Source: Symbiodinium natans
Taxonomy: Eukaryota > Sar > Dinophyceae > Suessiales > Symbiodiniaceae
Direction of reading: 5' to 3'
Length of the DNA stretch: 64,000 nt
NCBI GenBank assembly: GCA_905221605.1
Contig: CAJNDS010002369.1
Location: forward strand, 186,001-250,000
The notes below the pieces were generated by a model, which searched no databases, was not told where the DNA came from, and saw nothing but the letters and a program-made list of their open reading frames with translations. Made by a program: the position numbers and the translations under genes. Shown in pieces: positions 30,542 to 48,200 of the stretch. Within the stretch, counting starts at the first letter, position 1; each line of letters begins with the position of its first letter.

Positions 30542-33500
30542 TCAGGTCCACAAGTTGGCAAGGAAGCCGAAGGACCCCGCTGCAAAGTAGTAGCTGAGCT
30601 TCTGCACGTTTGAAGCTGTGATACCTCGAGTGGATGTAGGCTCCTAAAGGTTTGGCAGGGTTTTGGGCTTATATAGTAGTCCCCCCCCCCCACTTTCATA
30701 ACATGTCATGTAAGGCTTCCGATGCATTCATATGCCTTCCGACGGAACAAATCAACGCATTGGGGTTTAGGGTCTAGAGTCCAGGAGTTTGCTTCCCACG
30801 CTTGCCTAAAAATCCCCTCATCCCCTCCCCAGAAACACCCCCAGCCCTCCAGCCCTCCTTGAATTTCGGAATAAACCCTCCCCGACACATGGCGCGGCCC
30901 TACACCCCTCGCCCTTCTAAGGGGTCCCTGGCAACCCCTCTTTGAGAATTTTCTGGAGGTTCACAGGGTGCTAAGGACCCTAAACCCAAAACCCAAAACC
31001 CAGAACCCAAAACCCAAAACCCAAAACCCAAAACCTAAACCCTAAAGTCTAAGACATGGCAGTCGAAGCTTGGGTGAAGCCTTCCTCCACATCGTCATGG
31101 AATCGCCAGAACAAGAAGTGCAAGTTGTAGGGTTTAGGGTGTAGGGTAGTTTAGGGTTTAGGGTTTAGGGCTTAGGGTTTTCACAAGGGTTTAGGGTTTA
31201 GGGCTTAGGGTTTTCACCAGGGTTTAGGGTTTAGGGTTTAGGGTTTAGGGGTACTTGGAGACATCTGGGCTGATCTCCTTGTCAGGGAATGGAGTACTTT
31301 GCCCGTCAAGCAAGGCCAAGGCAGTCGACGTGTGTTTACAATCAACCCACCCTAAACCCTACGTAACCCTAACCCCTAACCCCTAACCCCTAACCCCTAA
31401 CCCCTAACCCCTAACCCCTAACCCCTAACCCCTAACCCCTAACCCCTACCCCGAACCCCTAAACCCTAAATCCTAAACCCTAAACCCTAACACCCAAAAC
31501 CCAAAACCCTACAAACCCTAAACCAAACAAACCCTAAACCAAGCAAACCCTAAACCCTACAAACCCTAAACCAAGCAAACCCTAAACCAACCAAACCCTA
31601 AACCAAGCAAACCCTAAACCAAACAAACCCTAAACCAAACAAAGCCCGGGCCTAAACCAAACAAACCCTAAACCAAACAAACCCTAAACCAAACAAAGCC
31701 CGGGCCTAAACCAAACAAACCCTAAACCAAACAAACCCTAAACCAAACAAAGCCCGGGCCTAAACCAAACAAACCCTAAACCAAACAAACCCTAAACCAA
31801 ACAAAGCCCGGGCCTAAACCAAACAAACCCTAAACCAAACAAACCCTAAACCAAACAAACCCCAAACCCCAAACCAAACAAACCCAAAACCAAACAAACC
31901 CTAAACCAAACAAACCCCAAACCCCAAACCAAACAAACCCAAAACCAAACAAACCCTAAACCAAACAAACCCCAAACCCCAAACCAAACAAACCCAAAAC
32001 CAAACAAACCCTAAACCAAACAAACCCCAAACCCCAAACCAAACAAACCCAAAACCAAACAAACCCTAAACCAAACAAACCCCAAACCCCAAACCAAACA
32101 AACCCAAAACCAAACAAACCCTAAACCAAAAAAAACCCAAACCCCAAACCAAACAAACCCCAAACCAAACAAACCCAAAACCAAACAAACCCTAAACCAA
32201 AAAAACCCACCTCCTCAACTTTAGGATTGCTACCTTGGACCCTTAAGGCTGTACCCTTGGGTTTTGGGGTCCCTTGAGGCAATAGCAGGGCCACATTAGG
32301 AGTATATATATTTATATATATATGGTAATATATATATATATATATATATATGGGGAACCAACCTGCGGGGTCGTGGGGGGTGCTCTCCAAGATGCGAATC
32401 CCCCGCGCGTAGAACCCTGCCCGGCTGTGCAGGATGTACTGGACCACATATTGTCGCGATTCATCGAGAACTGCGCGGTCATCAAAGGACCAGGAATTGA
32501 CTAAGGGCACCAGTCGATCGACCTTTTCAGTGACTGCCGCGGCGCTCGACAGGACGTAGAGGAAGAGGAGTACAGGAGAGTACACCCACCCCATCCACAT
32601 CAGGACATCCATCACGGACTCTCTCTCCTCAGACAAAGTCAGCGAGACGACCTGGTACGCAAACATGATCATGGTGGCCACACAGGAGGACGCCAACAGC
32701 ATCAGAAAGTCACTGAGTTTGCAGGAGACTTGTCGAAGAGTGGCTTGGACCACATTCCAGCTCATCACCGCTGCCTCCATGTCACCTCAGGACTATCCGA
32801 CAATCGAGCTGAGGGGCTTCTCTATTCTTCACCCGATGTTGGAAGCAGATACTTAGGACCTGAGTTAGGCCAGGCACCTGTGCTAAAACAGTTCACGGCA
32901 AAGCTGTCCACTGCCAGCTCCAACCCTGCAGTTATGTGGAACACGCAGTAGCAAGCGGAGCAGTAGCACAGAGACATGCCCGTGAAGACCACGAGCTTTG
33001 TGACATCGAATGCATTCACCTGCGGTGCACTTCATCAGTACTAGGGCTTCTGCCTACACACAACTTCCTCACGAGTCTGGCACCATGGATTCCAACAAAC
33101 AAGCCTCCTCCATCTTCCCATAAACTGGCTGTGAAGTCAAGAACCTGACGTGTTCGGAACTCCGCTTCTTTGCATTTGGTACCCTGCATAATGTTTTACA
33201 GGGCATAAAGAGGGGATGGTCCCGCATTCCCTCATTCCCTATGCTTCTAAACTTGCTATTCCCTAGAAACCCTAAACCCTAAACAGTAATGATCAGCAAG
33301 TCTGTTCAGGGCGCAAACCCGTAAAACCCTACCCCTGAGAGGCTCAGGCTCCAGGTTCGCGAAGGCTAGGTTCCCTTGTTTGGCCCCGAAGGGGTTTAGG
33401 GTTCACAACAAGGCAAACGGGCACTCACCAATGTTGATGGGTGCGCTGTCTCTAGACTCGGCAACGTGCAGCGTACATGCTCCGAACAGCTACCAGTCTA

Positions 33501-45200: not shown

Positions 45201-48200
45201 GCTTCCTGCCGCCCTGCGGCGTAGTCTTCCAGCAGGTACTCGGCAGGGCCCAGCAGCGAAGTAATCTTGTTCCTCCTGAGGCTCATGATTCCGACCAGGG
45301 CACCTGAGGGGAGTTTTTGCGTGTTGCAAGGCTTCTACAAGGTCCAGGGGTCTAGGGTTAAGGGTTTAGGGTTTAGGGTTTTTTTGTGGTGAAGTGTGTC
45401 AGGGGATGAAGAATCGGATTTTCCCTGCGCCTATGAAGTACAGGACCGACGTGACGAGGGGCTCTGACTGCTCGGCTGTGTGCCTTTACTGCTCTGATAC
45501 TGCTCTGATAAGCGAGGGTTTGGGGAGTTTGGGGCTACAATCCACGACATTCGTGCTCGGAGCGTCCGAGAGTCTCATGCCAAGTGCCGATCATGGCCAG
45601 CAATGCGCACATGCCCAGCATCTGCATTCCAAGGCTGGCCCTGGAAAGGTAGCGCCATTTCCTGCCGCACCGGAAATCCTCAGATGTACTTGGGGATTGT
45701 GAGTGTCGATTGAATGCTGTAGCTGAACAGCCCCAGAAAGAGCTTGCGGGCTGTAGCAGAGCGCCCTGTCTGTCCCTAAGCTGCTGTATTTGGTGGAGGG
45801 TATCCTTGAAAGCTCTCAATATCTTATCTCTACAGAATCTATACATGACCCTTCGGCAATCACAGACCAGGAACCGGAACACTATAGGGCTAGGAACAGA
45901 ACACTGCTGCGAGTGAACCCTTGCAAGTGTGGGGCCTTCACCTGCGGCTTGAGTGCGGAACAGATATTGCAAGGAGCAACCGTAGTGGCACAGGCTCGTT
46001 TCTTGGCACTCGGAGACTGTGATACACGAAGACATGACGCATCCTTCTGACTCCCTAGGCATTGCCTCTCTTGGATTCTGCCAAGGCTCGAGGATACCAA
46101 CCAATGATAGGAGGAACCATCCCGTCGAAGGCAAGGCTGCTGGCATGCCGGCCGAAATTCGTTTTGAGCACGGGGATGCCAGCGAGGGTGCGGCAATGAT
46201 CGCATCGTGGTCTGCGCGGAGGTTGTCGAGAGACCTCCTCCGGCCCAGAATGGGCCGGGAGCTGGGAACGCTTGGCGTAGGCGTGGCTGAAGGTCTGGAA
46301 GGCTGCGCTGGCTCGTCCACGGAGACGGCTGAGAAGTCGGCAGTTAGCTGCAGCTTCTTGGGTGAGTCCACGGGAGCACTCGCAGACTCGTGGGAACTTG
46401 GCTGGTGGAGGCCGGGCATGTCCGGGCGAGACCTCCGGCTGCCCACGCTCGGAACGCTCGGACACGGACTCGGTCCCTCCTCTGGCTCCACAAAGCCTAG
46501 GATGGTCACTAAAACCCTCTGACAAATACTCCCAAAAAATGATCCTCTTCTACACCCAATGAGGGAAAATATAAAAATATCCCAAGGGCGCTACCAAGAG
46601 GCTTACTGACCTCTTCCGCCTTCGTTTGCCCCGTCCACACAACTCCTGTGCTCTGGCCTCTTCGAGTTGGGTCAGCATCCCATACAAAGCGCCAGCCGAA
46701 GGGGATGGCACATCCCGGTGTCCACCTAGACCCAAGAGGAAGCTAGGAATCAAAAAGGGGGTGGCCCTTCCTGGTTTTTCAAGGGCCCTAAACCCTAAAC
46801 CCTAAACCCTAAACCCTAAACCCTAAACCCTAAACCCTAAACCCTAAACCCTAAACCCTAAACCCTAAACCCTAAACCCTAAACCCTAAACCCTAAACCC
46901 TAAACCCTAAACCCTAAGCCCTCCACTCTGGGTCCTAGCCACTCATGTCCCTCTCCAGCTTTGCTGACACCAACCCAGAGCTGCTGTTCGAAGGCTGCTT
47001 CCGCATGACATCGTGTGACCTGCGCATATTCCCAACTCCCCTCCCCCCCCCCCCCCCCCCCCCCCCCCCGGGTTTAGGGTTTAGGGTTTAGGGTTTAGGG
47101 TTTAGGGGTTAGGGTTTAGGGTTTAGGGTTTAGGGTTTAGGGTTTAGGGCCAGAACACTTGGTCGAAAACCACGAGCGTCGCTCGCTACCTTGACTCTCC
47201 TCTGGATGGGCAGACGAGCAAATTGAACCCCTTGATGTTCAGATGACTCCCCACCTGCAACTTCCCTGGCAGGCATCGGATAACGACTCCGACTGCATGA
47301 TCTTGAGTGCCTTCTCGATCCTCGTCAAGGACGCCTTGAATCCCCGAAACTCTGACATCTGCGAGCTGATCTGCACGAGTGTCATACCAACGTACTCCAT
47401 GTGCTGCAGTGTCTGCTCTGCTGCACACAGTTTCTCGTTGCTGCCCTCGGATTCCATGGCTGGCTACACACTGTCTCTGACAGAGATCCGGTCCCCTAGC
47501 AAGCCGACAGCGAGCGCAGCCCAATAGACACGGGACTGCGCCCTTTCTGAAAAATACAGCCGGCCCGGACCGTTTTATCTAATGGACCTACTCCAGACAG
47601 CGGTTTGAAGCCAAGAAAAACGAGATAACCCCAGCCGGGCCATGGAAATGTATCGCGTCGAACTCATCCGATACCCCCCTTGTGTAGAGTTTGGGGAATC
47701 AGTTGGGTTGTACTTGTGGGTCCAGCTCTTCAGGGCTTGTTGGGGGCGAATGGCCGTGCCGCGAAAACCCTAAACCCTAAACCCTCAACCCTAAACCCCC
47801 CAAACCCCAAAACCCTAACTCCTCAATCCTACTCGGTGCCTTGGCGATGTCCCGGGCCTCCTCTAGGGCTCCAACATCCTCAACACTGAACAGTGTCACC
47901 TCCGCTGCGGATCCTCGTGCACATGGGTATAGAGTCTCAGGGTTTGGGTTTTATTTGAGGGTTTTTGGGGCTCTTCGGGCTTTTAGGTGCTTTGTCTCGC
48001 TTTTCTCGGGTTTTTCGGGCTTTGGGGGTCTTTAGGGTGTTGAGGGCTCTTAGGCATTTTAAGTCATACGAAAAAACAAGAAAATGAACCAAATCCTGTG
48101 AACATATACAGGTAATGGTGGTTTTCCTAGGAAAAACCAAGGAAATCGAACCCAAAAAAACACACAAAGGAAAGAACAAGACCCAAACAAATATACCCTC

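Follow-up and report, generated by a model that had tools for sequence, protein, structure and literature searches.

Candidate introner gains between paralogous genes of Symbiodinium natans, amid telomere-type arrays polarised around exons

We analysed a window of 64,000 nucleotides (nt) from the dinoflagellate Symbiodinium natans (assembly GCA_905221605.1, contig CAJNDS010002369.1, positions 186,001 to 250,000; coordinates below count from the first base of the window). Two paralogous genes on its minus strand, c1 and c2, differ by six introns that occur in one copy only, two in c1 and four in c2. In addition, the non-coding DNA of the window is dotted with arrays of the telomere-type heptamer, TTTAGGG on one strand and CCCTAAA on the other, which tend to lie around exons in the order CCCTAAA-exon-TTTAGGG. 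Taken together, these observations are probably best explained by introns gained from short mobile elements (introners) and by a separate heptamer repeat whose orientation is filtered by splicing.

The exon blocks of c1 (30542..37755; 13 exons, 12 introns) and c2 (41875..47457; 15 exons, 14 introns) align, mostly at 70-96% identity, whereas the intervening introns do not. Intron boundaries were set by reading frame first (donors GT, GC or GA, acceptor AG) and by alignment to homologues second. With the modelled introns removed, both frames were open from end to end, giving proteins of 604 (c1) and 600 (c2) amino acids that terminate in ..FLANLWT and ..FLAKLWN. Exon-by-exon alignment thus bore out the six unshared introns announced by an earlier, sequence-only reading of this DNA, as well as its claim that their excision restores the frame. 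Ten protein relatives of c1 were found; six of them span 100% of it at 43-56% identity, and three come from Symbiodinium sp. CCMP2592 (54-56% identity over the full length). A Pfam search with c1 gave nothing above the cut-off. One open stretch of c2 (46089-45679) was rejected as an exon, since the homologues read GIL|DF at this place; it was modelled as a shared GA-AG intron. Together with the neighbouring YOD1 gene, the two copies comprise 36 modelled introns, with GC (19), GT (10) or GA (7) donors and AG acceptors throughout, a tally that is partly a matter of construction, as only these dinucleotides were admitted. The base after the acceptor is G in 33 of the 36. According to a review, GC/GA-AG introns make up 25-74% in Symbiodiniaceae (PMC11453091).

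The unshared introns of c1 are located at 36318..36432 (115 nt with GA-AG borders, direct repeat GATC and a CCCTAAA array at 36367-36395), a member of the CTTGGTAGCCCAGT element family and one of the four seeds of the element search described below, and at 34091..34226 (136 nt with GC-AG borders, direct repeat GCTC and, at 34140-34185, a TTTAGGG array in sense orientation). In c2, the intron at 46726..46942 (217 nt, GT-AG, direct repeat GTGG) has the ends CTAGGACCCA..TGGGTCTAG and contains a sense TTTAGGG array at 46785-46922. The next one, 46486..46606 (121 nt, GT-AG), has neither an exact direct repeat nor an array, and its 3' end is uncertain: 46486 and 46519 both keep the frame, the former being nearer to the homologues by eye. 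The intron at 42317..42421 (105 nt, GT-AG, direct repeat GTAC) is likewise free of arrays, while that at 41882..42033 (152 nt, GA-AG, direct repeat GAAC) comprises the element CTAGGATGCCCAGTA..TACTGGGCAACCTAG and a sense CCCTAAA array at 41900-41960; its excision yields ..LWN followed by a stop. All six are on the minus strand. Four of the six coordinate sets given by the sequence-only reading hold, but the first c1 intron had been placed at 36437-36328 instead of 36432-36318, and the end at 46519 is doubtful. Within the intron starting at 46606, positions 46585-46598 resemble an element end with 3 mismatches in 14 bases; the likeness may be fortuitous or stem from an eroded copy of the element.

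A direct repeat of 4-5 bp had been claimed for every junction. We found an exact one of 4 bp in five of the six introns and none (0 bp) at 46606. In these five, the first four bases of the intron are the exact start of the downstream exon, the donor dinucleotide lies within the duplicated bases, and AG closes the inserted piece. Among the shared introns the same was true of 2 of 20 (Fisher p = 0.0018; these represent ten positions, each counted in both paralogues, and are not independent), and it was true of none of ten YOD1 introns (2/30 for both groups pooled, p = 3e-4). Mismatched intron/exon pairs, used as a control, showed a 4-bp repeat in 2.0%. Because the repeats are concentrated in the unshared introns, we favour recent gain over loss and infer from the sequence comparison that these introns were gained. 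Homologues lack extra residues at the four well-aligned sites (36432, 34226, 42421 and 42033). The gain proposed by the sequence-only reading is supported by precise extra segments, by the distribution of repeats and, for two of the six, by a multicopy element. The tract c1 32797-32381/c2 42779-42258 is 93-96% identical, compared with roughly 70-89% in the other longer exon blocks, and its synonymous divergence (dS) is 0.12 versus 0.63 before the tract; gene conversion is the likely cause. Since the intron 42421-42317 lies within this tract, with flanks of 96% and 93% identity, it would have been gained after an exchange between c1 and c2, or lost from c1 after one.

The multicopy element has the ends CTTGGTAGCCCAGT..ACTGGGCTACCAAG, a copy length of about 96-235 bp and about nine copies in the window. 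Its terminal inverted repeats are clear by eye at several copies. We searched with a profile built from four hand-picked seeds and with the element ends, allowing up to 3 mismatches, and chose the nine copies by hand from 34 profile rows with E-values of at most 10 and from 18 matches to the ends; a candidate at 60757 was dropped as it had no second end. Two of the unshared introns (36318-36432 and 41882-42033) belong to this family, to which the other four were not assigned. The remaining copies, again on the minus strand, are found at 618..852 (direct repeat GCAA, CCCTAAA arrays inside), 3050..3151 (left end exact at 3151, right end and hence start coordinate approximate, the recognisable part free of arrays), 15268..15363 (no array; from the mismatch search of ends), 33688..33784, 53940..54059 and 55930..56040 (three seeds without array, the last with an approximate left end) and 63259..63406 (direct repeat GGTA, TTTAGGG array near the left arm). 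Beyond the unshared introns, target duplications were evident by eye only at the two copies with GCAA and GGTA. Arrays are thus contained in four of the nine copies and absent from five. Their place and strand vary, from near the left arm (63259-63406) through central (36318-36432) to near the right end (41882-42033). Between the arms of the array-less copy at 3151 we observed imperfect heptamers (TTTGGGGTTCAGGGTT), and other copies have looser versions. From these placements we infer that arrays grow or arrive secondarily within element copies and would be passengers, not the origin of the intron. A second repeated piece, TTTCCGAAA..AGGGGTACC (40 bp at 90%), is shared by a c1 intron (36596-36491) and a c2 intron (44732-44620) and looks like another inverted-repeat element.

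The arrays themselves are a feature of the whole window. We counted 190 of them, about one per 340 bp, covering 13.8% of the sequence (6.2% in one strand orientation, 7.6% in the other). A chromosome end was rejected as their explanation, as they are short and occur on both strands throughout. In 35 introns of c1, c2 and YOD1 they occupy 16.7% of the bases, as against 1 of 4,277 exon bases; 13 of the 36 modelled introns have no array of at least 20 nt. TTTAGGG-type arrays do occur in four of the six unshared introns, as had been reported. However, 42-59% of random windows of 105-217 bp touch an array and 27-30% consist of it by at least one fifth, so that four in six is unremarkable and an enrichment in the unshared introns was rejected. 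Moreover, introns at positions common to c1 and c2 differ in their arrays: a TTTAGGG array in c1 35902-35494 corresponds to a CCCTAAA array in c2 45430-45304, and an array in c2 47254-47020 has no counterpart in c1 37564-37464. Arrays therefore turn over faster than the paralogues diverge. The suggestion that telomere arrays form the introner body is not supported, given that they fill the non-coding DNA of the window, are differently placed in or missing from the element copies and differ between shared introns. Within the last intron of c1, positions 31475-32208 hold an array roughly 0.7 kb long, whose units of 16 and 55 bp are apparently variants of the telomere unit.

The orientation of the arrays is not random with respect to each other. 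For arrays of at least 25 nt, a CCCTAAA array followed by a TTTAGGG array most often leaves a gap of 100-150 bp (21 of 39 pairs). Gaps of at most 200 bp occurred in 32 such pairs, compared with 15.3 expected (standard deviation 2.9), a number reached in none of 20,000 strand shuffles; the opposite order gave 13 pairs. The excess was present in region 1-30500, for which no gene model was used (15 pairs versus 6.4 expected, 3/20,000 shuffles), in the gene region (10 versus 4.8, 46/20,000) and at the right end of the window (7 versus 4.0, 337/20,000). Among gaps of 60-200 nt outside 30.5-56 kb, the 22 pair cores had a median GC content of 0.591, versus 0.506 and 0.530 in two control sets of 9 gaps each (18 in total; p = 5e-5), and their coding score exceeded that of the controls (p = 0.003); in both respects the cores resemble exons.

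The idea of a polarity arose from this window-wide pattern before arrays were counted in genes. The three homology-anchored genes contain 59 arrays in 35 introns; YOD1 intron 9 (8,161 nt), which harbours c2 and in whose model a short exon is missing, was excluded from these tables, and an array near both intron ends was counted for the nearer end, even if nearer by one base. Within 80 nt, a cut picked after several had been viewed, acceptors had 12 CCCTAAA and 2 TTTAGGG arrays, and donors 10 TTTAGGG and 5 CCCTAAA arrays (Fisher p = 0.008; 86/20,000 in a permutation over the 35 introns). Without the unshared introns the ratios were 11 CCCTAAA to 2 TTTAGGG at acceptors and 8 TTTAGGG to 4 CCCTAAA at donors (p = 0.015). 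A strand bias along transcripts was rejected, with 29 TTTAGGG and 30 CCCTAAA arrays. The window-wide pair test is the stronger evidence for polarity.

We propose the following mechanism. The unshared introns would be recent gains by short, non-autonomous cut-and-paste elements that insert into coding DNA and duplicate 4 bp. The duplicated bases, beginning with GT, GA or GC, would serve as donor and the terminal AG of the element as acceptor, so that excision restores the reading frame; we expect these introns to be spliced in S. natans. The heptamer arrays would be a separate, rapidly turning simple repeat of non-coding DNA that also grows inside elements and older introns. In sense orientation each unit offers an acceptor look-alike, TTTAG|GG, similar to the AG|G at 33 of the 36 modelled acceptors, and such arrays may be kept away from true acceptors. 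CCCTAAA contains no G, hence neither donor nor acceptor, and would be tolerated near acceptors. Such an orientation filter would lead to the arrangement CCCTAAA-exon-TTTAGGG, with splicing as the putative cause of the polarity. In line with avoidance, the AG preceding a real acceptor was a median of 13 nt away, versus 7 nt for AGs in the window as a whole (p = 0.006). TTTAGGG arrays near acceptors began at 35 nt, with the exception of one 13-nt piece at 15 nt.

Several observations weigh against this proposal. The zone poor in AG does not extend as far as the 35 nt where TTTAGGG arrays begin, and a splicing filter predicts few such arrays near acceptors but not their mild excess near donors. 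The fraction of open frames in the 22 pair cores showed no difference from that of the controls (p = 0.25). How clear the polarity in genes is varies with the chosen distance cut, with Fisher p values of 0.32 at 40 nt, 0.041 at 60, 0.008 at 80, 0.012 at 110, 0.015 at 150 and 0.07 without a cut; a first count in c1 and c2 only, without cut, gave p = 0.16, and the unshared introns alone gave p = 1 from just four arrays. As for the gains, among the six a 4-bp direct repeat is missing only from the intron at 46606, whose flank is poorly aligned; this site and 46942 fall in regions of poor alignment to the homologues. When terminal inverted repeats were compared with mismatched ends, two of the six unshared introns exceeded the 95th percentile, and the family member at 36432 fell below it.

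Precise losses from the other copy, mediated by reverse transcripts or by recombination between direct repeats, could in principle produce the same six differences, and the apparent exchange between c1 and c2 (dS 0.12 versus 0.63) offers conversion as a means of removing introns. But losses would have had to occur in both copies, and introns of equal age should be equally eroded, whereas the 4-bp repeats are kept in the unshared introns and scarce in the shared ones; we regard this account as very improbable. Telomerase might instead have healed double-strand breaks whose ends were later rejoined, leaving the introns, or at least their arrays, as repair scars. A left end extended by TTTAGGG and a right end extended by CCCTAAA on the same strand would give exon-TTTAGGG..CCCTAAA-exon, as observed; telomeric repeats are inserted at breaks in mammals, one class duplicating the flanks of staggered breaks (PMC7215372), and homologous sites without repeats, as expected for break repair, exist here for the unshared introns and for the shared introns with differing arrays. 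Against it, in the four unshared introns that contain arrays these stay clear of the junctions, by at least 20 nt on the donor side and at least 18 nt on the acceptor side, the direct repeats where present are all of 4 bp, as from a transposase, and the differing arrays of shared introns indicate that arrays can follow the intron in time. Since arrays sit inside elements and differ within old introns, break healing is an unlikely origin of the introns, and we consider the account as a whole unlikely too.

The arrays could also be functional parts of introns, UUUAGGG near the donor pairing with CCCUAAA near the acceptor, or forming a G-quadruplex, so that the splice sites come close to each other. 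In YOD1 intron 2 (54766..55163, minus strand), the RNA is predicted to pair a sense TTTAGGG array, 20 nt away from the donor, with a CCCTAAA array, 28 nt away from the acceptor, and to bring the intron ends together (z -7.7), and the c1 intron 36268-35959 folds likewise (z -3.5); these two introns were the ones folded against shuffles. The abundance of GC and GA donors would suit an auxiliary role, and in mammals G-quadruplex motifs are reported to be enriched near splice junctions (PMC9065059). Yet the z-scores do not show function, as arrays in inverted orientation would pair whatever their role, about a third of the introns (13/36) lack a longer array, and c1 and c2 differ in arrays at the same intron position, which together make such a function rather improbable. 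A broader version deserves somewhat more credit, although we doubt it: arrays would be polarised intron parts, TTTAGGG towards the 5' and CCCTAAA towards the 3' end, re-formed in this way after each turnover via intron definition or telomerase. Intron definition may here act through pairing arms, a G-quadruplex or acceptor decoys. If this version were true, splicing and the spread of telomere repeats would be coupled genome-wide. We nonetheless prefer introner gain combined with a splicing filter on independent arrays.

The third homology-anchored gene encodes a YOD1/OTU1 ubiquitin thioesterase (39273..55406, minus strand, 11 exons modelled) and matches YOD1 of Symbiodinium sp. CCMP2592 at 69%. 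The entire c2 gene is nested on the same strand within its modelled intron 9 (47839-39679); in Polarella, 6.5-8.4% of the predicted genes are nested in introns (PMC7245778). We modelled a 20-nt micro-exon (54765-54746, IAYALE) between two array-bearing introns of YOD1, and did not find a short exon near the 3' end of the gene matching EANSKR of the homologues. In a YOD1 intron, a GGAAGGAAG-like repeat at 48444-48660 translates as strings such as RKEGRKEG or FLPSFLPS. Judging by its protein relatives, the window as a whole (GC content about 51%) comes from the nucleus of a dinoflagellate near Symbiodinium. Rfam and tRNA scans of the window gave no match. In viral contigs, no relative of the c1/c2 gene was confirmed among 72 pattern matches, and a search with a 21-base element end yielded no copy.

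It is rare for an intron gain to be seen with its duplicated target and, in a paralogue, the empty site as well; five candidate cases lie here within 17 kb. The polarity of the arrays, in turn, provides a handle for testing quickly, across the whole genome, whether dinoflagellate splicing filters simple repeats or whether these partake in it. Introners that duplicate their target and have inverted repeats are already known, dinoflagellates included (PMC7789003, PMC9860276, PMC11453091), as are internal telomere repeats from break repair in mammals (PMC7215372). In the accessible portions of the open-access literature, most subscription papers lying outside this scope, we met no description of telomere-type arrays inside introners, nor of such a polarity around exons.

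Like the candidate elements described here, dinoflagellate introners are short multicopy intron-makers; they were recently active, and many of their families show target duplications and inverted repeats (Roy et al. 2023 Curr Biol, via PMC11453091; Gozashti et al. 2022, PMC9860276). They differ, as far as the available text of these sources goes, in the telomere-type arrays, which four of our nine copies carry and of which we met no account there. The introner elements of Amoebophrya (Farhat et al. 2021, PMC7789003) resemble ours in their border direct repeats of 3-5 nt and their non-canonical donors, and have hairpin-giving inverted repeats, such as several of our copies show by eye; here, in contrast, the modelled acceptors are all AG, the donors are GC, GT or GA, and the arms may enclose arrays of telomere units. 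Break-born interstitial telomeric sequences (PMC7215372) are short internal arrays, some of them intronic, as in our window. However, the 31% of the human ones that lie in introns fit random insertion, whereas those of our window are polarised around exons; the authors of that study considered it worth testing whether interstitial telomeric sequences affect splicing. Finally, Polarella glacialis has a likewise repeat-filled dinoflagellate genome, in which one simple repeat, (TTG)n, makes up 18.5-19.1% of the assemblies (PMC7245778). In S. natans the unit is the telomere heptamer, it occupies 13.8% of one window, and its strand appears to be set by the nearest splice site.

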